From the NCBI GenBank assembly GCA_019244235.1, contig JAFASY010000193.1:1-64000 (forward strand): a stretch of DNA of 64,000 nt, read 5' to 3'. Source of the DNA: Chroococcidiopsidaceae cyanobacterium CP_BM_ER_R8_30. Lineage in GTDB: Bacteria > Cyanobacteriota > Cyanobacteriia > Cyanobacteriales > Chroococcidiopsidaceae. How positions within the stretch are numbered: the stretch's first letter is position 1; every line of letters starts with the position of its first letter. The notes under the pieces were generated by a model. That model saw only the letters and a program-made list of their open reading frames with translations. It had not been told where the DNA came from and searched no databases. Below are positions 13,569-50,799 of this stretch, piece after piece. A program made the position numbers and the translations under genes.

Positions 13569-14579
13569 TTGAAAGTTTGGGAAATTCAGCCACGAGAAGG
13601 ATTAAATGCTTTGACCCTGGTAGAGAAACCAGAGCCTCAACCACAACCAGGTCAAGTTCTGCTTAAGATGCGTGCCGCCTCACTGAATTACCGCGATTTA
13701 CTAACTGTTAAAGGGGCCTACAGCTCAAAGCAGCAGTTGCCTTTGATTCCCTTATCAGATGGTGTTGGCAAAGTTATTGCAGTTGGCGATGGAGTGACAA
13801 GAGTCAAAGTTGGCGAGCGGGTGGCAAGCAGCTTCATGCAAACCTGGGTAGCTGGCGAGTTTTCAGCCGCAAAAGCCAAGTCAGCTTTAGGTGGAGCAAT
13901 CGATGGGATCTTAGCCGAATATGTGAGTCTCCATGAAGATGGAGTTGTGCATCTGCCCAGACATTTGTCGGATGTAGAAGCAGCGACACTGCCATGTGCT
14001 GCTGTGACTGCTTGGCACGCGCTCATTACGACAGGCAATCTCAAGGCAGGAGATACTGTCTTAATTCAGGGAACAGGGGGTGTGTCAATATTTGCCCTCC
14101 AGTTCTCTACTATGCTGGGGGCGCGGGTCATTGCTATCTCTAGCAGTGACGAGAAGCTAGAGCGAGCCCGTCAGTTAGGTATGGCAGAAGGTATTAATTA
14201 CAAAAGGCTGCCAGACTGGGAAGAACAAGTCTGGCAGTTGACAGATAGTATTGGGGTTGACCATGTTGTCGAGGTGGGTGGAGCTGGCACATTGAACAAA
14301 TCCCTGCGTGCAGTGCGCATGGGTGGTCATATCAGCTTAATTGGCGTGCTAACTGGACTAAGAAGTGAAATTAGCACTGCCTCTATCTTGCAGAAGAATA
14401 TTCGAGTCCAGGGAATTTATGTCGGCAGTCGCGAGATGTTTGAAGCAATGAATCGTGCGATCACCTTACATGAAATGCGACCCGTTATCGATCGGGTGTT
14501 TCCCTTTGAGCAGGCACGTGAAGCACTGGCCTACATGGAAAGTGGCGCACATTTTGGCAAAATTTGCTTGCAGTTTTAG
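13569..14579 (+). CDS. Zinc-type alcohol dehydrogenase / quinone oxidoreductase family (MDR)
   Basis: This 336-residue medium-chain reductase has a GroES-like N-terminal half (LNYRDLLTVKGAYSS) and a Rossmann nucleotide-binding half (GDTVLIQGTGGVSIFALQFS). The catalytic-zinc cysteine is not present at the usual position, so an NADPH-dependent oxidoreductase of the quinone/enal reductase type is more likely than a true alcohol dehydrogenase. The TTG start at 13569 is supported by AAAGGAG eight bases upstream. It diverges from nadK and converges on ppa. Confidence 0.88.
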   Translation: MKVWEIQPREGLNALTLVEKPEPQPQPGQVLLKMRAASLNYRDLLTVKGAYSSKQQLPLIPLSDGVGKVIAVGDGVTRVKVGERVASSFMQTWVAGEFSAAKAKSALGGAIDGILAEYVSLHEDGVVHLPRHLSDVEAATLPCAAVTAWHALITTGNLKAGDTVLIQGTGGVSIFALQFSTMLGARVIAISSSDEKLERARQLGMAEGINYKRLPDWEEQVWQLTDSIGVDHVVEVGGAGTLNKSLRAVRMGGHISLIGVLTGLRSEISTASILQKNIRVQGIYVGSREMFEAMNRAITLHEMRPVIDRVFPFEQAREALAYMESGAHFGKICLQF

Positions 14580-14628
14580 AAGATTTTATCGAAAAGGGTG
14601 TAGTGAACCCCCACACCCCTTCTTGGTT

Positions 14629-15165
14629 TTATAGAGCAGCAGAATCGCGACCTTTCTCGCTGCCAGCTCTAACACACTCTTCCACCAGGGGCATGACTCG
14701 ATCAACATCCTGCCAACCGCGAATTTCCGTGATTTTCTTCTCTAGATTTTTATAAGTCCGGAAAAATTCAGCAATTTCATTCAGTCGATGCGGTGCTACA
14801 TCCTGGAGAGACATGATTTTGTTGTAGCGCGGGTCTTTATCAGGGACGCAAAGAATTTTCTCATCGCGATCGCCCCCATCAATCATCTCCAACATACCAA
14901 TTGGTCGCGCTGCTATAATGCACCCCGGAAAAGTCGGCTGATCTATCATTACCATTCCATCTAGCGGATCGCCGTCTTCAGCTAGGGTATTAGGTACAAA
15001 ACCATAATCGTAAGGATATTGCACCGAGGAATAAAGCACCCGATCCAGAGCAAAGGCTTGCAGCTCCTTGTCGTATTCGTATTTATTCTTACTACCTGCA
15101 GGGATTTCAATCAGCACATTGATTAGACCTGGCTTGGGTTGGGCTGGAATGCGGGATAAGTCCAC
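14629..15165 (-). CDS. ppa: Inorganic pyrophosphatase (family I)
   Basis: This enzyme hydrolyses pyrophosphate from biosynthesis. The product from the GTG at 15165 begins [20 protein letters not shown], the usual cyanobacterial start, with GGAG ten bases upstream; a TTG start 24 bases earlier is less likely. Active-site residues are seen in [20 protein letters not shown], the family I signature DGDPLDGMV and CVPDKDPRY. Length is 178 residues. It converges on the oxidoreductase gene. Confidence 0.95.
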
Positions 15166-15287
15166 GGGGAAAGTTCTCCAAAGTGACAAATGCTGGTAGG
15201 GTATGATCTCTCACTCCCTAAAGACGCATTTTAGGCGAAGAGCGCACCTCCTTGTAGGCACTTTATCTCCTGAGTCTGCTATCTTCA

Positions 15288-15590
15288 CTAAGAGCGCATA
15301 ACGCTGCGAGTGAGCGCAGTCACCCGTCGGGCATCGGAGAACACACCTTCACCTTGGATTTTAGGCACAGGAGGTCTGACTTCAATTTTCACAACATTAG
15401 CAGTCTGGATGCAAACCGTTTGCTCTGGTAGATGGAGAATCCACCAAGGTTTTTCTAAGAGCTGTCTAATTTCTTGGTGGAACTCCGCCTCAGTCACAGC
15501 TGCGTTTGGTACTCGGAGAACGTTAAACGACTCTGTCTGACCATTGACGAAGTGAAATGTTAGCTGTGTTAAGTTCTCTTGACTATTCAT
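15288..15590 (-). CDS. Small conserved-looking hypothetical protein
   Basis: The 100-residue product (MNSQENLTQLTFHFVNGQTE, then PWWILHLPEQTVCIQTANVV) predicts as a beta hairpin, a helix and a strand pair ending KIEVRPPVP, plus a basic tail. I do not recognise a named family. Its layout resembles the small protein before mltA at 2196-2450. It lies upstream of ppa on the same strand with a 122-base gap, so independent expression is likely. Confidence 0.65.
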   Translation of the reverse strand: MNSQENLTQLTFHFVNGQTESFNVLRVPNAAVTEAEFHQEIRQLLEKPWWILHLPEQTVCIQTANVVKIEVRPPVPKIQGEGVFSDARRVTALTRSVMRS

Positions 15591-15654
15591 TGTCAGGCAC
15601 TCCTCTGGAACTAAAGTAACAACTCAATCTAGACCGCGAAAGGCGGTCACGTGC

Positions 15655-15716
15655 AGCGTTCTCTTGCGCGTCACCTGCTGCTCGCGTGGTGGAGGTTGCC
15701 TCCCTCGAGAACGCTG
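15655..15716. repeat. Imperfect palindrome, dispersed GTTCTC/GAGAAC family
   Basis: CAGCGTTCTC (15655-15664) is inverted as GAGAACGCTG (15707-15716), with GGAGGTTGCCTCC near the centre-right and another dyad, GACCGCGAAAGGCGGTC, just before it. The GGAGG-TTN-CCTCC core matches the perfect palindrome at 9040-9084. It is intergenic, between the hypothetical gene and a decayed TPR gene. Confidence 0.6.
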
Positions 15717-15928
15717 ATCTTGGAAAAAAGGCAGTGTTCCATTGACTGGAATTTGATCTTATTGCTAATTTAGCTGCTATTTGGTTGAGACAAAATCCTA
15801 AATTTGTTTGTTAAGCTATGCTACTCTTTGGGAAATCCTAAAAAAAATCACTCCAAAGTATGGTGTGAAAATTTCTACGACTAGATCTGAATCTTACAGC
15901 AGAATTCTTTTTCCAGCAGGGAGTACGC

Positions 15929-16969: not shown

Positions 16970-17956
16970 TTAACTTGCAATATACTCCTGCACATTCGCC
17001 CGACGACGGCGCAGATGAGCAAGGGCTTGATGCTCCAGTTGACGGACTCGCTCACGACTCAGGTTAAGCTGCTCTCCAACTTTTGCTAAAGACAACTCAT
17101 TGCCATCCTCTAAGCCGAAACGCAAGCTCAAGACCTGCCGCTGTTGAGGCGTTAGCTCTGATAGCAGATCATCTAGGTCTTGGCGCAGCGACTCCTGCGT
17201 CATATAATGCTCTGGTGATGGTCCTTCATCCTCTAAAAGGTCCTGAAGTTCTGTGTCTTGGTTATCCCCAACGCGGACATCTAACGAAACTGGTTGCCGA
17301 GCCATATTCATATACTCCCGGATTTGAGCTGGTTCAAGCTCCAGCTCCTTACCGATCTCAGCTGGTGTGGGGCTACGTCCCAATTTCTGGGCTAGTTCCC
17401 GTTGCACCTTCTTGATTTTGTTAAGTTTCTCAGTAATATGAATCGGCAAGCGGATGGTACGAGCCTGCTGGGCGATCGCTCTGGTAATCGCTTGGCGAAT
17501 CCACCAGTATGCATAGGTCGAGAACTTGTAACCCCTTGTCGGGTCAAACTTCTCTACACCACGCTCTAAGCCCATAGTGCCTTCCTGGATCAAGTCCAAG
17601 AATTCCATGTTGCGCTTCTGGTACTTCTTGGCAATAGCCACGACCAAGCGCAAGTTAGCCTCAATCATTTTTTGCTTAGAGCGCTGTCCGCGCCGCACAG
17701 TTTCTTTTAATTCGGTCTCGCTAACATGAACATGTGTCGCCCACTCTTGTGTGGTCGGTTCGCGGTGCAGTTTTTTCGCTAAGACCGCTTTAGCTTCAAG
17801 TAGGGGCATCAATTGCTGCACCTGCTTGCCATAAACAATCTCTTGTTCGCGCGTTAGTAGCGGCACACGACCGATCTCACGCAGGTAGGTACGCACCATG
17901 TCAGCTGTAAACTTGGTGGTGTTGGGTTTTTCAGTTTTGGTGTTAACTGTGGGCAT
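16970..17956 (-). CDS. Group-2 RNA polymerase sigma factor (RpoD/SigA family, SigB/SigD-like)
   Basis: The 328-residue protein has sigma regions 1.2 (MVRTYLREIGRVPLL), 2 (ANLRLVVAIAKKYQKRNMEF and STYAYWWIRQAITRAIAQQA), 3 and 4 (LTPQQRQVLSLRFGL, LSRERVRQLEHQALAHLRRR). It lacks the long acidic N-terminus of the primary SigA and is the length of cyanobacterial group-2 factors; the RRRRANVQEYIAS tail is most like SigD, though SigB cannot be excluded. Such factors handle light, redox and stress responses. The transcript ends at the hairpin near 16860. Confidence 0.93.
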   Translation of the reverse strand: MPTVNTKTEKPNTTKFTADMVRTYLREIGRVPLLTREQEIVYGKQVQQLMPLLEAKAVLAKKLHREPTTQEWATHVHVSETELKETVRRGQRSKQKMIEANLRLVVAIAKKYQKRNMEFLDLIQEGTMGLERGVEKFDPTRGYKFSTYAYWWIRQAITRAIAQQARTIRLPIHITEKLNKIKKVQRELAQKLGRSPTPAEIGKELELEPAQIREYMNMARQPVSLDVRVGDNQDTELQDLLEDEGPSPEHYMTQESLRQDLDDLLSELTPQQRQVLSLRFGLEDGNELSLAKVGEQLNLSRERVRQLEHQALAHLRRRRANVQEYIAS

Positions 17957-18430
17957 CGTTGCGTCGTCAACTCCGTAGACAGTTCGAATGCTAAATATCT
18001 ATTCAGTGGGTAGAGCGGCAATGAAGAACAATCATCTGCGTTCTATTAGGACATTAACCAAGGTTAAATCAGCCAACATCCCACAGAAGATGTAAAGACC
18101 TTCTTACCACAGGTAATAGCAGCTAACTCACACTTAGCAGTACTCAAAATATGTAATCTGGCAATCCGAGAACAATCCAGTACCAAGACAGTAAAAAATA
18201 CGAAGCGGTTATGAGTTTGACTTCATCTATATTATTACGAATTGAGAGACTCGTAAAGAGCAAGAACCTCGACTGCACTAACAACTGGTGCAGCGGAGGA
18301 ATGTTCTCAGGCTTAAGAGCAATCTGCTATTACCTTTACTCTTCTATAATGACTCTTCTAGCCCTTAACTAGCCACCAATAGGAAGCCGGATAACCGAAC
18401 TAACTAAGACCCTATACTGGTAGGATATCA
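17957..18430. other. 474-base intergenic stretch upstream of the sigma factor
   Basis: This region separates the HerA-like gene from the sigma-factor gene, both on the minus strand. No ORF or known RNA was recognised. A small dyad CTGCAC/GTGCAG lies at 18273-18293. The length would allow a long regulated 5' leader or a small RNA, but nothing in the sequence proves it. Confidence 0.5.
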
Positions 18431-20146
18431 CTAAAAACCCAGATCGGCTTTAGCAAGTTCAGCGGCAGCAAAGACTTCGTCATCTGACTTTTCTTCCCAA
18501 GCAACATCCCCAATTTCGGTGTAGAAAGTCTCATCGTAGGGTCGCGTTCTGACAACTACAGGCATAGGAACCGCATGACCTAGAATTAGGGCTTGCTGCT
18601 TTGAGTCTAGCTTTGCTAAGACAGAGCGGAGGTTTTGACCACCAGAGACACCAGTAAAAATAGCTTCAATGTCTTTCTCGTCGTTAAGTAAAGCCGTGAT
18701 CCGGGTTCCTACCTGAGACATGACTTCGTTATCAATTCCTGATGGACGCTGGTCAACGACCAAGAGCGTGACAAAGTATTTGCGCATCTCGCGAGCAATG
18801 GTGCCAAAGATAGTTTGGCGAACAGTAGCCGGGTCAAGAAAGCGGTGGGCCTCTTCGATGGTAATGACCAGAGGGCGAGGGCGATCACTCACATTCTTTG
18901 TTTGCAAAAATTTCTCTGCTTTGCGGACATAGGACTGATGAATCCGACGAGAAATGAGATTAGTCGCCAGCATGTAAGACAGCATATTCGACTGAGAGCC
19001 GAACTCAATCACAACATGCTTTCCGGCATCCAAAGACTCCAATATTTGACCGACATAGTTATGGGGACAGCTCGTCCGCATATACTTCAACTCATCTAAA
19101 CGCAGCAGTTTCCGCTGCAAAGCCATAATTGAAGACTTATTCCCTCGTTTTTCTTCACAAAAGGAATCAATTTCCTCATTACTCATAGCTAGCAGCTGGG
19201 CAATCCAAGATCGACCAAACTCATTGCGCAGGATAATAGCATTCTCCAGACTAGCTTCCGAAAGATTTAGCTCATTACGCACCAGCATAATGTCTTCAAC
19301 CTCAATTTGGTCGTAGCCGAGATAAAGTTCCTGGGCATCGCGCACACCACGCCGCTTGGTAGAGTCAGAGTCAAGGGTGTAGATTTGTACTTGACCTGGA
19401 AACAATTGCCGTAGACCTTTAACGGTGCTAAACTGTTTGCCTTCGCAGGTTGCTTCCCAACCATACTCTGAGTGCATATCGAAAATTAGGTTAACTGCTG
19501 CTTGCTTGCGAATAATGCCTGACAACAGTAACCGAGTCAGAAAAGATTTTCCTGTCCCCGATTTCCCAAATACACCATTGCTACGTTCTACAAATCGGTC
19601 TAAATCGATACAGATAGGTACATCCATATCCAGCGGTTGACCGATGGCAAAATTGCGTCGTGATGGGTCATCTTCCCAACCAAATACTGCCCGAAAGTCC
19701 CGTACGCTAGCATCGTAAACTTGACTGAAGTGACTGGGGATCGTCTTAACTGGCAGCAATTCTATTTTACTGCTGCTTTGTGGTTGAAAAGATGCTAATG
19801 AATTCTGCCCATTGATACTGACTCTTTCTAACACCCCGTTGCTCATTTCTTCTGGAGTGAACATCAGCATGGGAGTCAAGTTAACCGTGCCAAAGGTGCC
19901 ACCTCCAGCTAGCACTTCTCGTAAAAAATCATCTTCAGGATTAGGCGGGTTAGCGACAATCCGGTTACTAGATGTCCCTAGTGCTACATCTGTAAGCATA
20001 CAGAAGAAACGCGATCGCACCCCCTCTACTACCAGAAACTTTCCCACCCGCATATCTTCTACTGAGACGTCAGGGTGCAATCGCACCTCTAACCCCTGGC
20101 TGAGAGAGCCCTGTGTAACTGAGCCTAATGGCTTACCTAGATTCAT
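18431..20146 (-). CDS. HerA-like ATPase (DUF87/HAS-barrel)
   Basis: The 571-residue protein has an N-terminal beta-barrel (residues 1-140) and a FtsK/HerA-type ATPase domain. Walker A is GKSGTGKS at 194-201, in VFGKSGTGKSFLTRLLLSGI; Walker B is VITIEE at 427-432, followed by AHRFLDP; an arginine-finger-type REMRKYFVTLLVVDQRPSG lies beyond. HerA enzymes are hexameric DNA translocases that pair with NurA nuclease in archaea or with SIR2-like effectors in some defence loci. No such partner lies beside it, so a cyanobacterial housekeeping role is equally possible. Confidence 0.85.
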   Translation of the reverse strand: MNLGKPLGSVTQGSLSQGLEVRLHPDVSVEDMRVGKFLVVEGVRSRFFCMLTDVALGTSSNRIVANPPNPEDDFLREVLAGGGTFGTVNLTPMLMFTPEEMSNGVLERVSINGQNSLASFQPQSSSKIELLPVKTIPSHFSQVYDASVRDFRAVFGWEDDPSRRNFAIGQPLDMDVPICIDLDRFVERSNGVFGKSGTGKSFLTRLLLSGIIRKQAAVNLIFDMHSEYGWEATCEGKQFSTVKGLRQLFPGQVQIYTLDSDSTKRRGVRDAQELYLGYDQIEVEDIMLVRNELNLSEASLENAIILRNEFGRSWIAQLLAMSNEEIDSFCEEKRGNKSSIMALQRKLLRLDELKYMRTSCPHNYVGQILESLDAGKHVVIEFGSQSNMLSYMLATNLISRRIHQSYVRKAEKFLQTKNVSDRPRPLVITIEEAHRFLDPATVRQTIFGTIAREMRKYFVTLLVVDQRPSGIDNEVMSQVGTRITALLNDEKDIEAIFTGVSGGQNLRSVLAKLDSKQQALILGHAVPMPVVVRTRPYDETFYTEIGDVAWEEKSDDEVFAAAELAKADLGF

Positions 20147-32157: not shown

Positions 32158-32442
32158 ATGACCAACAGTAATGACAGGCTAGACAGGATAGAAGCACTAC
32201 AGCTCCAGACGCAGCAGATTGTTGATTCTAATTCGCGAGCAATTCAAGCATTAGCTGATCGCTTAGCCGAACTGGCTCTAAGACAAGAGGAAGCTCAAGA
32301 AGAAAGAGCAGAACTGCGCCAAGCAACAATTGGAATCGCTAACCTACTCAGTTCCCTAGATAGCGATCGCCCTACAATCCTGCGGAAGCTGACTAGCATT
32401 GAGAATAAAGTAGACCGACTCTTGGGAAGAGGCGATGACTAG
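32158..32442 (+). CDS. Small coiled-coil protein, paralogue of 46943-47323
   Basis: The 94-residue protein is a continuous helix with heptad character (RLDRIEALQLQTQQIVDSNS, AEERAELRQ) and the block GIANLLSSLDSDRPTILRKL at residues 58-77, followed by a final leucine-rich segment IENKVDRLLGR. The same 20-residue block is identical in the protein at 46943-47323, which ends prematurely after it. No named family is recognised. It diverges from the nuclease-like gene at 31428. Confidence 0.7.
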   Translation: MTNSNDRLDRIEALQLQTQQIVDSNSRAIQALADRLAELALRQEEAQEERAELRQATIGIANLLSSLDSDRPTILRKLTSIENKVDRLLGRGDD

Positions 32443-45150: not shown

Positions 45151-46845
45151 GTGAGTTTTCTCAAGAACTTATCAGTGCTTTTTGTAAGAGCTACACTTTT
45201 TACACCTTCAAGTTTTATTGCAATCATTACAATAGCTACTGCTATAACTACCGCTCTTGGCATGGCATTGAGAGCGGAAGCAGCTACACTCAGCGTTGAT
45301 GAAAACTTTGCTGGAAGTAAGTTTTTGGGTGAATCGCAAGGCTTTTTCCCACCTGATACCCAGGGCGCAGTTGGACCCAGTGACATTACTGAATTCGTTA
45401 ATGGTGAATACGACGTCTATGATAAAACTGGCAATCACCTTCAGAGCAGTACGCTTAACCAGTTTTGGACGAACGCTGGTGTGAGTTTTAACAGCTTCAC
45501 CTATGACCCAAGAGTAGTATACGACCCTTTCAGCAACCGCTGGTATGCTGCTGCGGCTGACAATCCAGGTCAACAAAACAATTTTCTGCTTGCTGTATCA
45601 AAAACCTCAGACCCAACAGCAGGTTGGACTGGTTTTACAATTAACAGCGATTCAACTGGCACTCGCTGGGCAGATTATCCTACATTAGGCTTTAACAACG
45701 ATGGTGTCTATCTAGCAGCAAACATGTTTTCAATTAACGGTAGTAATTGCTCTCAGTGTACAACAACGATTGTTGCAGTACCGAAGAGCAGCCTGCTGGC
45801 GGGTACGGACGCTAACTATACAAAATTTGAAAATCAAAGTCCCAACAGTATAGGATTTTCTGTGCAGCCCGTTGTTAATCTAGACAATAATGGGCTGCCG
45901 GAGGCTTTGCTGTCTAGCTACAATACACCAGGTGGTTTGCTGAAGAGATCTGACATTACTGGAAGTATAAATGCGCCGAGTACGGTACAGCTAAACGGCT
46001 CTCATGGTAATACCAATCCGGCAGCTAGTATTAATGGTGGGTCTAGTACTACGTCAATAGGGTCTACCCAATTGGGAAATCCGATAGCGGTTACTGACCC
46101 AGATCTTCCGGCTCTCCCTATATTTTCTGTGGGTCAGGCATCTGCGCCAACGCTCTCTACAAATAATGGATTTATTTCCAGCAAACCATACAATACTGCA
46201 CCATCTGCCCAGCAACCTGGTGGTCCGAATACTATAGATACGAGCGACACTCGCTTGAGTTCAAATGTCGTTTTGAAAAACGGAATTATCTGGGGGGTGC
46301 AAGATGTGCAAAACCCTAATAGTAACCGTGCGGCCATGCGCTTTTTCAAGATTAGAGCTAGTGACAATACAGTTCTTCAAGACCAGTTAATCGGCGACCC
46401 GAATTCTGATTATTATTACGGTTCAATTGCTGTCAACTCACCAAACGATGTTGTAATTGGCTTTAGTCGATCAAGCAGCCAAGAGTACGCTAGTAGCTAT
46501 GCTGTGTTAGGTGAGCCTGACTCCTCAGGAAACATTATGTTCAATACTCCAGTCCTACTACACTCAGGGCAAGCTAGCTACCAGCAATTAGACGGTAATA
46601 GTACAAACCGTTGGGGTGACTACAGCGCTACTGTTCTCGATCCGAGCGACCCCTCTGGGTCTACTTTCTGGACATTTCAGGAAACTGCTGATGTTGTTGC
46701 TAATAGTTGGGATACTGAAATCACTCAGCTGAAAATCAGTCAACCCGCTAATGTCCCTGAACCCAGTTCGCTTCTGGATTTATTGACGTTTGGTGCTTTG
46801 ATTACTAGTTCTCTGCTGAAACGTAAGTCAGTAGCGAAGCTGTAG
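45151..46845 (+). CDS. Large exported protein with PEP-CTERM sorting signal
   Basis: The 564-residue protein starts at GTG with an export signal (ITIATAITTALGMALRAEA, mature chain from about residue 45) and ends with the PEP-CTERM signal: VPEPSS near residue 538, a hydrophobic helix (LLDLLTFGALITSSLL) and KRK. The bulk is beta-rich (DTQGAVGPSDITEFVNGEYD and many Asn/Gly/Ser turns) without a named catalytic domain. An exosortase would cleave and release it to the surface; none is in this window. The GT9 genes just upstream may help decorate the surface. Confidence 0.85.
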   Translation: MSFLKNLSVLFVRATLFTPSSFIAIITIATAITTALGMALRAEAATLSVDENFAGSKFLGESQGFFPPDTQGAVGPSDITEFVNGEYDVYDKTGNHLQSSTLNQFWTNAGVSFNSFTYDPRVVYDPFSNRWYAAAADNPGQQNNFLLAVSKTSDPTAGWTGFTINSDSTGTRWADYPTLGFNNDGVYLAANMFSINGSNCSQCTTTIVAVPKSSLLAGTDANYTKFENQSPNSIGFSVQPVVNLDNNGLPEALLSSYNTPGGLLKRSDITGSINAPSTVQLNGSHGNTNPAASINGGSSTTSIGSTQLGNPIAVTDPDLPALPIFSVGQASAPTLSTNNGFISSKPYNTAPSAQQPGGPNTIDTSDTRLSSNVVLKNGIIWGVQDVQNPNSNRAAMRFFKIRASDNTVLQDQLIGDPNSDYYYGSIAVNSPNDVVIGFSRSSSQEYASSYAVLGEPDSSGNIMFNTPVLLHSGQASYQQLDGNSTNRWGDYSATVLDPSDPSGSTFWTFQETADVVANSWDTEITQLKISQPANVPEPSSLLDLLTFGALITSSLLKRKSVAKL

Positions 46846-46909: not shown

Positions 46910-46952
46910 TCGGAGCGGCGGGATTCGAACCCACAACCTCCACTATCCCAAA
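46910..46952 (-). pseudogene. 3' half of a tRNA-Pro(UGG) gene, cut at the anticodon loop
   Basis: Read on the minus strand, TTTGGGA (loop with anticodon TGG) is followed by TAGTG (anticodon-stem 3' strand), GAGGTT (variable region), GTGGG-TTCGAAT-CCCGC (T arm) and CGCTCCG plus discriminator A. The bases before TTTGGGA do not pair with TAGTG, and no 5' half is found nearby. The fragment is fused to the end of the coiled-coil gene, whose last codons (NFALG and stop) are read from it. No CCA is encoded. Confidence 0.75.
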
Positions 46953-47323
46953 GCAAAGTTCAATTTCCTGAGAATGGTAGGTCTATCGCTGTCAAGGGAT
47001 GAGAGCAGGTTGGCAATCCCCATCGTCACTTGACGTAGCTCTTGGCGCTCTGCCTTCGCTTCTTCGCGGTCTTGCTCCACAGCTAACTTGAAAGTCGTGA
47101 TGTCTTCTGTTAGTGCTTGTATTGCCCGACCGTTCGATTGGGTCAGTTGTTCGATTTGTCCAATAGACCGCTCAATCCGAGTCATGCGCTCGTTACTTTC
47201 TTGCCTATCGCGCTCCATCGTCTGCTCTAATCGCGTCATGCGCTCATTACTAGCTATGACTGACTGCTGTAATAAAGCCTCTATCTGAGCTAGGCGATCG
47301 CCACTGCTACTTGTGTTGGTCAT
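46943..47323 (-). CDS. Coiled-coil protein, 3' end truncated at the tRNA fragment
   Basis: The 126-residue protein is nearly all coiled coil (RLAQIEALLQQSVIASNERM, then a repeated SNERMTR(L/I)E and AERQELRQ). Residues 103-122 are identical to its paralogue at 32158-32442 (GIANLLSSLDSDRPTILRKL). Right after this block the paralogue continues with an IENKVDRLL helix, whereas this gene ends NFALG at the tRNA-Pro fragment, so its 3' end appears to have been replaced. It follows the RHH gene by 30 bases. Confidence 0.75.
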   Translation of the reverse strand: MTNTSSSGDRLAQIEALLQQSVIASNERMTRLEQTMERDRQESNERMTRIERSIGQIEQLTQSNGRAIQALTEDITTFKLAVEQDREEAKAERQELRQVTMGIANLLSSLDSDRPTILRKLNFALG

Positions 47324-47353: not shown

Positions 47354-47557
47354 TCATGCTGTCTCCTCTGGGTCAAAATGCTTGACTGCTTCTGGATCAA
47401 ACGTTCTCAGAATTCGCTCCAAAGTTTCAGAACGACTCAGTCCCAGCTCATCCGCCAGTTCATCAAGGGCAGCTAAAGACTGCTCAGTAATCATGAACTG
47501 TTTTGAGACCTTAGCCTTCCCATAAAGCTTAGACTCAACCCGCCTCGTCACTGGCAT
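47354..47557 (-). CDS. Ribbon-helix-helix (CopG-like) antitoxin/regulator
   Basis: From the ATG at 47557 the 67-residue protein begins MPVTRRVESKLYGKAKVSKQ and has the RHH core: a strand (KQFMITEQS), helix LAALDELADELGLSRSETLE and RILRTFDPEA. An earlier ATG would add 15 residues but is less likely. Such proteins repress their own operons, often as antitoxins; the following coiled-coil gene, 30 bases downstream, is the natural partner candidate. Confidence 0.8.
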   Translation of the reverse strand: MPVTRRVESKLYGKAKVSKQFMITEQSLAALDELADELGLSRSETLERILRTFDPEAVKHFDPEETA

Positions 47558-47604
47558 AACTAACACCGCCATATCTACATACATCCATAGTACTGTCATC
47601 ATTA

Positions 47605-48919: not shown

Positions 48920-49543
48920 TCATCTTTTGACCTGAAGTACCTGCAAACTCCCTCCTGCATAAAAGTTTTGTTTGCATACCTTAAACCCTGTCTCCTCCAG
49001 CAATTTAGTCAAATCCGTTTTCAGGAGCTGCCACGCTGTCTCTGTTTCAAACAATAGTAAGAATAGAGACAGCCCAGGCCAAAAGACCCAATTATTAGGA
49101 GCGTGAAAATCTACTAAAGTAAATATTCCTTCCGGTTTTAGCACCCGGTAGACTTCTTTGAGAATCTGCTGAAGTTGGCTAGGTTCCATTTCATGCAGTG
49201 CTGTACTGGTATGCACGAGATCGAAGCAAGCATCGGGAAACGGCATGTTCTCAGCGAAAGCCTCAACATACTGGGCTTGAGTCACATTCTGCTGCGCTCG
49301 CTTCAAGGATAAAGGTGAAGCATCTAGTCCCGTAACGTTTTGGGAGAACTGTACTAATATTTGCGTTGCTTGACCACTACCGCAACAGAGGTCAAGCACC
49401 TTGGTTTCTGGGTGAATAGTTAACCCTTGTAAAGCTAGCTGGCGAAATCGAACCTCACCGCCTACACTCAAAGCAGCTAGACCAGCGATCGCATCGTACA
49501 ACCATTGGTAGCGGTAGCTCCAGTCTCTTAAAATTGTTGCCAC
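48920..49543 (-). CDS. Class I SAM-dependent methyltransferase (UbiE-like)
   Basis: The 207-residue protein has LALQGLTIHPETKVLDLCCG (motif I as VLDLCCGSGQATQI), NVTGLDASPLSLKRAQQN and FDLVHTSTALHEMEPSQLQQ. It resembles ubiquinone/menaquinone-type methyltransferases but the substrate is not known. It diverges from hemH by 83 bases. Confidence 0.9.
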   Translation of the reverse strand: MATILRDWSYRYQWLYDAIAGLAALSVGGEVRFRQLALQGLTIHPETKVLDLCCGSGQATQILVQFSQNVTGLDASPLSLKRAQQNVTQAQYVEAFAENMPFPDACFDLVHTSTALHEMEPSQLQQILKEVYRVLKPEGIFTLVDFHAPNNWVFWPGLSLFLLLFETETAWQLLKTDLTKLLEETGFKVCKQNFYAGGSLQVLQVKR

Positions 49544-49626
49544 AACTTAACTCCTTTTATCAACTGGCACACTTAGTAAAGATATATTGTTAAACTTAGT
49601 AACAAAGCTGAAAGGATCGGGGTGCT

Positions 49627-50799
49627 GTGACTGTTAATGGTCGTGTTGGGGTATTATTACTTAATCTTGGTGGTCCGGATCAAATAGAGGACGTTGGTCC
49701 GTTTTTATTTAACCTGTTTTCTGACCCAGAAATTATTCGTCTACCATTCAAATGGCTGCAAAGACCTCTTGCCTGGTGGATTTCTACACTGAGAACCAAG
49801 AAATCGCAAGAAAACTATCGGCAAATTGGTGGGGGTTCTCCCTTAAGGCAGATCACCGAGGCGCAAGCTCAGGCACTTCAGGATCAGCTACAGGCACTAG
49901 GTCAGGAAGCCCAGATCTATGTGGGAATGCGCTATTGGCACCCCTTTACAGAAGAAGCGATCGCTAGGATCAAGCGCGATCGAATTGAACGTCTTGTGAT
50001 TCTGCCACTGTATCCCCAATTCTCCATTAGTACCAGTGGTTCAAGTTTTCGGTTACTTGAAAGACTGTGGCATGAAGACCCAAAAATTCAGCGAATTGAG
50101 TATACCGTTATTCCCTCCTGGTACAAACAGCCTGGTTATCTCCAGTCGATGTCTCAGTTGATGGCGCAGGAACTCAATCAGTTCCCCGATCCTGAGCAAG
50201 TTCATATCTTTTTCAGTGCCCATGGCGTTCCTCGCAACTACGTTGAAGAGGCAGGCGATCCCTATCAACACGAAATTGAGGAATGTACTGAGCTCATTAT
50301 GCAAACCCTCAATCGACCTAACCCCCATACTTTAGCGTATCAAAGTCGAGTAGGACCAGTAGAATGGCTCCAGCCCTACACTGAAGATGCAATTCAAAAC
50401 TTGGGAGCACAAGGTGTCACAGATCTACTCGTCGTTCCCATTAGTTTTGTTTCTGAACACATCGAGACGCTACAAGAGATTGATATAGAGTACCGGGAGG
50501 TCGCAGAACACGCAGGTATTCGGAACTTTCGTCGCGTGCCAGCTCCTAACACTAATCCGGTCTTTATTGAGGCAATGGCACAGTTAGTGCTGGAGGCGTT
50601 GAAATCTCCCAGTCTTAAACTGGCTCAAGTCACTCAGATGAAGAAAAAGGTCAAGATGTACCCGCAAGAGCGTTGGCAGTGGGGGATGACGACAGCAGCA
50701 GAAGTCTGGAATGGTCGTCTTGCCATGATTGGATTTATTGCACTGTTAATCGAACTGATTAGCGGTCATGGGCTCCTGCATCTTGTGGGAATTTTGTGA
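49627..50799 (+). CDS. hemH: Ferrochelatase with C-terminal CAB/Hli-like domain
   Basis: HemH inserts Fe2+ into protoporphyrin IX. The 390-residue protein starts at GTG ([20 protein letters not shown]), with the catalytic His in [17 protein letters not shown] and the conserved [12 protein letters not shown]. The C-terminal segment, [20 protein letters not shown], is the chlorophyll a/b-binding motif found in cyanobacterial and plant ferrochelatase-2 and helps regulate heme versus chlorophyll flow. It converges on the DUF4126 gene. Confidence 0.97.

Follow-up and report, generated by a model that had tools for sequence, protein, structure and literature searches.

How the 3′ half of a proline tRNA gene came to be fused to the end of a coiled-coil protein gene is the question raised by positions 46910–47323 of this cyanobacterial DNA. 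The window, i.e., the whole stretch that was analyzed, comprises bases 1–64000 of a 77-kb contig (C313) from a draft assembly of 5.54 Mb in 328 contigs.

The tRNA-Pro(GGG) relic and the shortened coiled-coil gene

The tRNA part lies on the minus strand at 46910–46953, reads CTTTGGGATAGTGGAGGTTGTGGGTTCGAATCCCGCCGCTCCGA from 46953 to 46910, and corresponds to nucleotides 30–73 of tRNA-Pro(GGG), spanning the anticodon loop, T arm, and acceptor and ending exactly at the discriminator base, A73. It was identical to same-family tRNA-Pro(GGG) genes at 42 of 44 positions (95.5%, E 1.3e-15 in a comparison within 81 kb), and a second alignment with the genes of relatives gave 95.8% identity over 48 bp. 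This identity, together with an open reading frame that runs into the tRNA, bears out the sequence-only reading that a tRNA-Pro 3′ half, T arm and acceptor end included, is fused to the end of a coiled-coil gene. The isotype given there, UGG, was wrong: the relic is Pro(GGG), the isotype that ARAGORN assigned to all 29 intact relatives listed, and the Pro(UGG) gene of this genome, on contig C111, is a different, intact gene. The same reading had the tRNA part begin exactly at the anticodon loop; the break is indeed there, at the 5′ edge of the loop, but homology starts at C30, two bases earlier.

Two substitutions, G37→A and C48→T, separate the relic from the tRNA-Pro(GGG) genes of relatives. 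Since both G37 and C48 are constant among all intact copies listed from relatives, the relic is probably dead, free of selection for tRNA function, and judging from its sequence it is unlikely to function as half of a tRNA. Neither ARAGORN nor Rfam called a tRNA at the relic because the 5′ half is missing.

The coiled-coil open reading frame (46943–47323, minus strand, 126 aa) is cut at the junction, and its stop codon, TAG, is formed by tRNA bases T38-A39-G40. Between the two parts, at 46954–46959 on the minus strand, the sequence reads ACTTTG, a partial repeat of the ACTTTGG of the tRNA, such that the join carries a 5-bp CTTTG tandem (ACTTTG-CTTTGGG). The last five codons had been ascribed to the tRNA as a whole; strict identity to the tRNA is confined to the stop codon, the two complete codons before it, and a portion of a third, whereas the remainder comes from the partial ACTTTG repeat. 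Sequence comparison identified an intact paralogue with a full tail at 32158–32442 on the plus strand, ending in SLDSDRPTILRKLTSIENKVDRLLGRGDD, whereas the junction copy ends in SLDSDRPTILRKLNFALG. An IENKxDxLL-type tail is kept in this paralogue and in some twenty same-subfamily homologues from other genomes; therefore, as first noted from the paralogue, the tail was truly lost at the junction. The coiled-coil protein had no match in viral contigs or phages and two weak matches, both from Stanieria, in plasmids; the junction DNA had no match in phage and plasmid records, nor did the exact 43-nt pattern in viral contigs.

The CTTTG tandem resembles micro-homology or slippage and brings in illegitimate recombination, by which an integrase-free deletion or inversion would have joined tRNA-Pro(GGG) to the coiled-coil gene with the help of these few homologous bases. 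The cut within the reading frame of the coiled-coil gene and the absence of an integrase nearby also fit such an event, but the break coincides with the point at which integrases cross over, and integrases in this family use this tRNA gene repeatedly (described below); we consider this origin unlikely.

Surroundings of the junction and contents of the assembly

On the coiled-coil side, the junction is followed by a small ribbon-helix-helix (RHH, CopG-type) open reading frame upstream of the coiled-coil gene (47354–47602, minus strand; Pfam RHH_1 above the gathering score) and, farther out, by a block composed of a methyltransferase gene (minus strand) and hemH (plus strand) at 48920–50799. This block represents an ancestral neighborhood: of seven relatives examined, three have the two genes side by side, and in none of these are they near tRNA-Pro. 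The non-conserved DNA, ∼2 kb that contain the coiled-coil gene, the RHH gene, and a GIY-YIG open reading frame, extends no farther than this block. With the block only 2 kb away, the site does not contain an island of the usual size. The G+C content at 46–49 kb is ordinary.

The gene on the tRNA 3′ side (45151–46845, plus strand) is absent from the 18 other genomes of the family and had no Pfam match; by eye, it encodes a signal peptide and a PEP-CTERM-like end. In this genome and in a same-family genome (G005) alike, an alpha-glucosidase gene is found ∼8 kb past the 3′ end of the tRNA, in opposite orientation in the two, and this shared gene weakly suggests that the tRNA 3′ side may be native; it is the single gene on that side in common with the native locus of relatives. 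The scar itself is located outside the native DUF1818-tRNA locus, in an arrangement unlike that of relatives.

Searches of the assembly recovered no intact tRNA-Pro(GGG), no second 3′ half (the relic is the only copy there), and no 5′ half, the Pro(UGG) gene serving as positive control, and the best local scores for a degenerate 5′ half near the junction were at background. DUF1818, the usual gene upstream of tRNA-Pro(GGG), was likewise not found in the assembly with a query that, in relatives, hits the tRNA-Pro(GGG) loci with 62–82% identity. The check first proposed, recovery of the intact tRNA gene, yielded only the Pro(UGG) gene, which has a different sequence. Of the usual set of three Pro tRNA genes, this assembly (G000) contains just the UGG gene, intact Pro(GGG) and Pro(CGG) not being found, and Pro-type 5′ halves gave one match here versus two to four in each of the 18 other family genomes; since Pro(CGG) is missing too and the 5′-half match is single, gaps in the draft may contribute to the missing copies. 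A search for an integrase and a partner attachment site was also unsuccessful: no integrase or integrase remnant was detected across C313, in the window and at 60–77 kb, by comparison with the integrases of two relatives, nor by Pfam among the open reading frames neighboring the scar, and a partner site is not demonstrable because the assembly lacks the intact gene, its 5′ half, and DUF1818. No convincing remnants of the other tRNAs collected from this genome were present in the window.

The missing genes could also be read in two other ways. A misjoining of two unrelated stretches in a 328-contig draft would be in keeping with the lack of intact tRNA-Pro(GGG) and DUF1818; however, the join shares ∼5 bases, assembler overlaps need far more than this, and the relic, with two mutations of its own, is more than a conserved functional gene put in the wrong place, making a chimera highly improbable. 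A tRNA gene that is functional but split, permuted, or interrupted by an intron, with its 5′ half elsewhere, would account for the failure to find an intact copy, but the complementary 5′ half is nowhere in the assembly, an A replaces G37, and tRNA-Pro(GGG) is ordinary and unsplit in relatives; we give this reading almost no credence.

tRNA-Pro(GGG) as an integration target in relatives

Comparison with relatives established that tRNA-Pro(GGG) serves as an integrase target in genomes of the same family. In G005, which has the highest hemH identity to the genome studied here, an intact tRNA-Pro(GGG) is followed by a tyrosine integrase gene (PF00589) and phage genes, including one for a tape-measure protein, and a 67-bp identical repeat with the tRNA 3′ part lies 21.46 kb downstream of the tRNA, delimiting a prophage of ∼21 kb beyond which the DNA resembles the native flank of another genome (G013). 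This 21.4-kb prophage resembles the junction in family, in target gene, and in the 3′ fragment at its far end, but its 67-bp repeat extends into the D arm and its end carries no coiled-coil gene. A second integrase gene is present just past the distal tRNA repeat (L077:11670–12734) and may belong to a second, tandem element.

A different outcome was found in G012, where all that remains at the native DUF1818 locus is the 5′ half, which breaks off in the anticodon loop after CACTTTGGGGT, and the intact tRNA-Pro(GGG) is located at 3.016 Mb, adjoined by an integrase gene and with a copied 63-bp promoter/5′ half. The 5′ half and the intact copy are 1.15 Mb apart on opposite strands (L116, L078, and L235), which suggests a large inversion through an integrated prophage. 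Taken together, G005 and G012 therefore show that integrases use tRNA-Pro(GGG), that either half can be displaced, and that inversions can part the halves. Separately, in G006 (L120:10238–18776), the intact tRNA-Pro(CGG) gene is preceded, at a distance of 8.45 kb, by a broken 5′ copy, and an integrase-like open reading frame (17458–18729) and a primase/helicase-like open reading frame (13584–15827) lie between the two; this locus looks like a 5′-fragment island.

Origin of the junction

Crossovers in the anticodon loop and 3′ fragments form a common pattern among the elements collected by Islander, which include 2083 islands with anticodon-centered sites and 3760 with 3′ fragments (PMC4383910). 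The junction shares this pattern, in that the fragment (46910–46953) runs to the 3′ end of the gene at A73, the crossover falls in the anticodon loop (subsite A) with homology from nucleotide 30, and relatives carry such elements at the same tRNA gene. It differs from Islander-type islands and prophages in being a scar alone, lacking island, integrase, and intact gene: an intact cognate tRNA on the same replicon in the correct orientation was not found in the assembly, a draft that may have gaps, and an integrase between such a gene and the fragment was found neither in C313 nor by Pfam among the neighboring open reading frames. Phages with tRNA-dependent lysogeny also have an integrase that recombines in a host tRNA gene, but in these the core measures ∼10 bp and the tRNA is supplied by the phage itself (PMC10865867).

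We consider it likely that an integrative element left this junction as an attR-type attachment site, now fossil, and that rearrangement subsequently detached it. Under this scenario, an element with a tyrosine integrase would have inserted by recombination in the anticodon loop of tRNA-Pro(GGG). The tRNA gene would have been made whole at one end of the element by the element itself, and the original 3′ half would have been displaced to the other end, adjoining DNA of the element with the coiled-coil gene and, probably, the RHH gene. A later deletion, inversion, or decay would have removed the element and parted the scar from the restored tRNA, with the scar still joined to a shortened gene from the element. 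The original interpretation as an attachment-site junction is thus supported by the break at the anticodon loop and by the use of the same tRNA gene as an integrase target in relatives; the attribution to a lost or distant element holds in a weak sense, given that the assembly has no intact gene, C313 has no integrase, and the site is not the native locus. Scars of this kind in tRNA genes are a well-known, ordinary feature of genomes.

RHH and coiled-coil genes also occur together at another tRNA gene. In a Thermosynechococcaceae MAG (L169, 4893–7173), a 2.2-kb island without an integrase is arranged as intact tRNA-Val(CAC), an RHH-like open reading frame, a coiled-coil gene, a 144-aa open reading frame, a second coiled-coil open reading frame, and a 47-nt tRNA-Val 3′ half identical to the same tRNA. 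Like the junction, this mini-island has RHH-like and coiled-coil genes beside a tRNA 3′ half that starts at the anticodon stem, and no integrase; in contrast, it involves another tRNA, which is still intact and in place, and a different coiled-coil subtype. At a further locus (L171), a coiled-coil gene directly follows tRNA-Ala. Within the genome studied here, a frameshifted coiled-coil paralogue lies directly downstream of tRNA-Thr(GGT) on contig C287 (L178:6151–6650). A general link of the coiled-coil family to tRNA genes was unsupported, with none of 26 further loci in an order-wide sample near a tRNA gene and three loci near tRNAs found by other means; such rarity beside tRNA genes counts against the attachment-site origin of the junction. 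An association of RHH/coiled-coil genes with tRNA genes is accordingly a lead only, chosen after the fact, and it is decidedly doubtful that small integrase-less RHH and coiled-coil cassettes insert at several cyanobacterial tRNA genes (Pro, Val, and perhaps Thr and Ala) by way of the integrases of other elements, in which case the junction and the L169 island would be two such insertions.

The scar illustrates that such traces outlive the elements that left them and that neighboring genes can be trimmed in the process. It adds tRNA-Pro(GGG) to the repeatedly used integration sites in this cyanobacterial family, with both 3′-fragment (G005 and the genome studied here) and 5′-fragment (G012) outcomes, and the possible link of RHH/coiled-coil genes to tRNA genes offers a small, testable lead.
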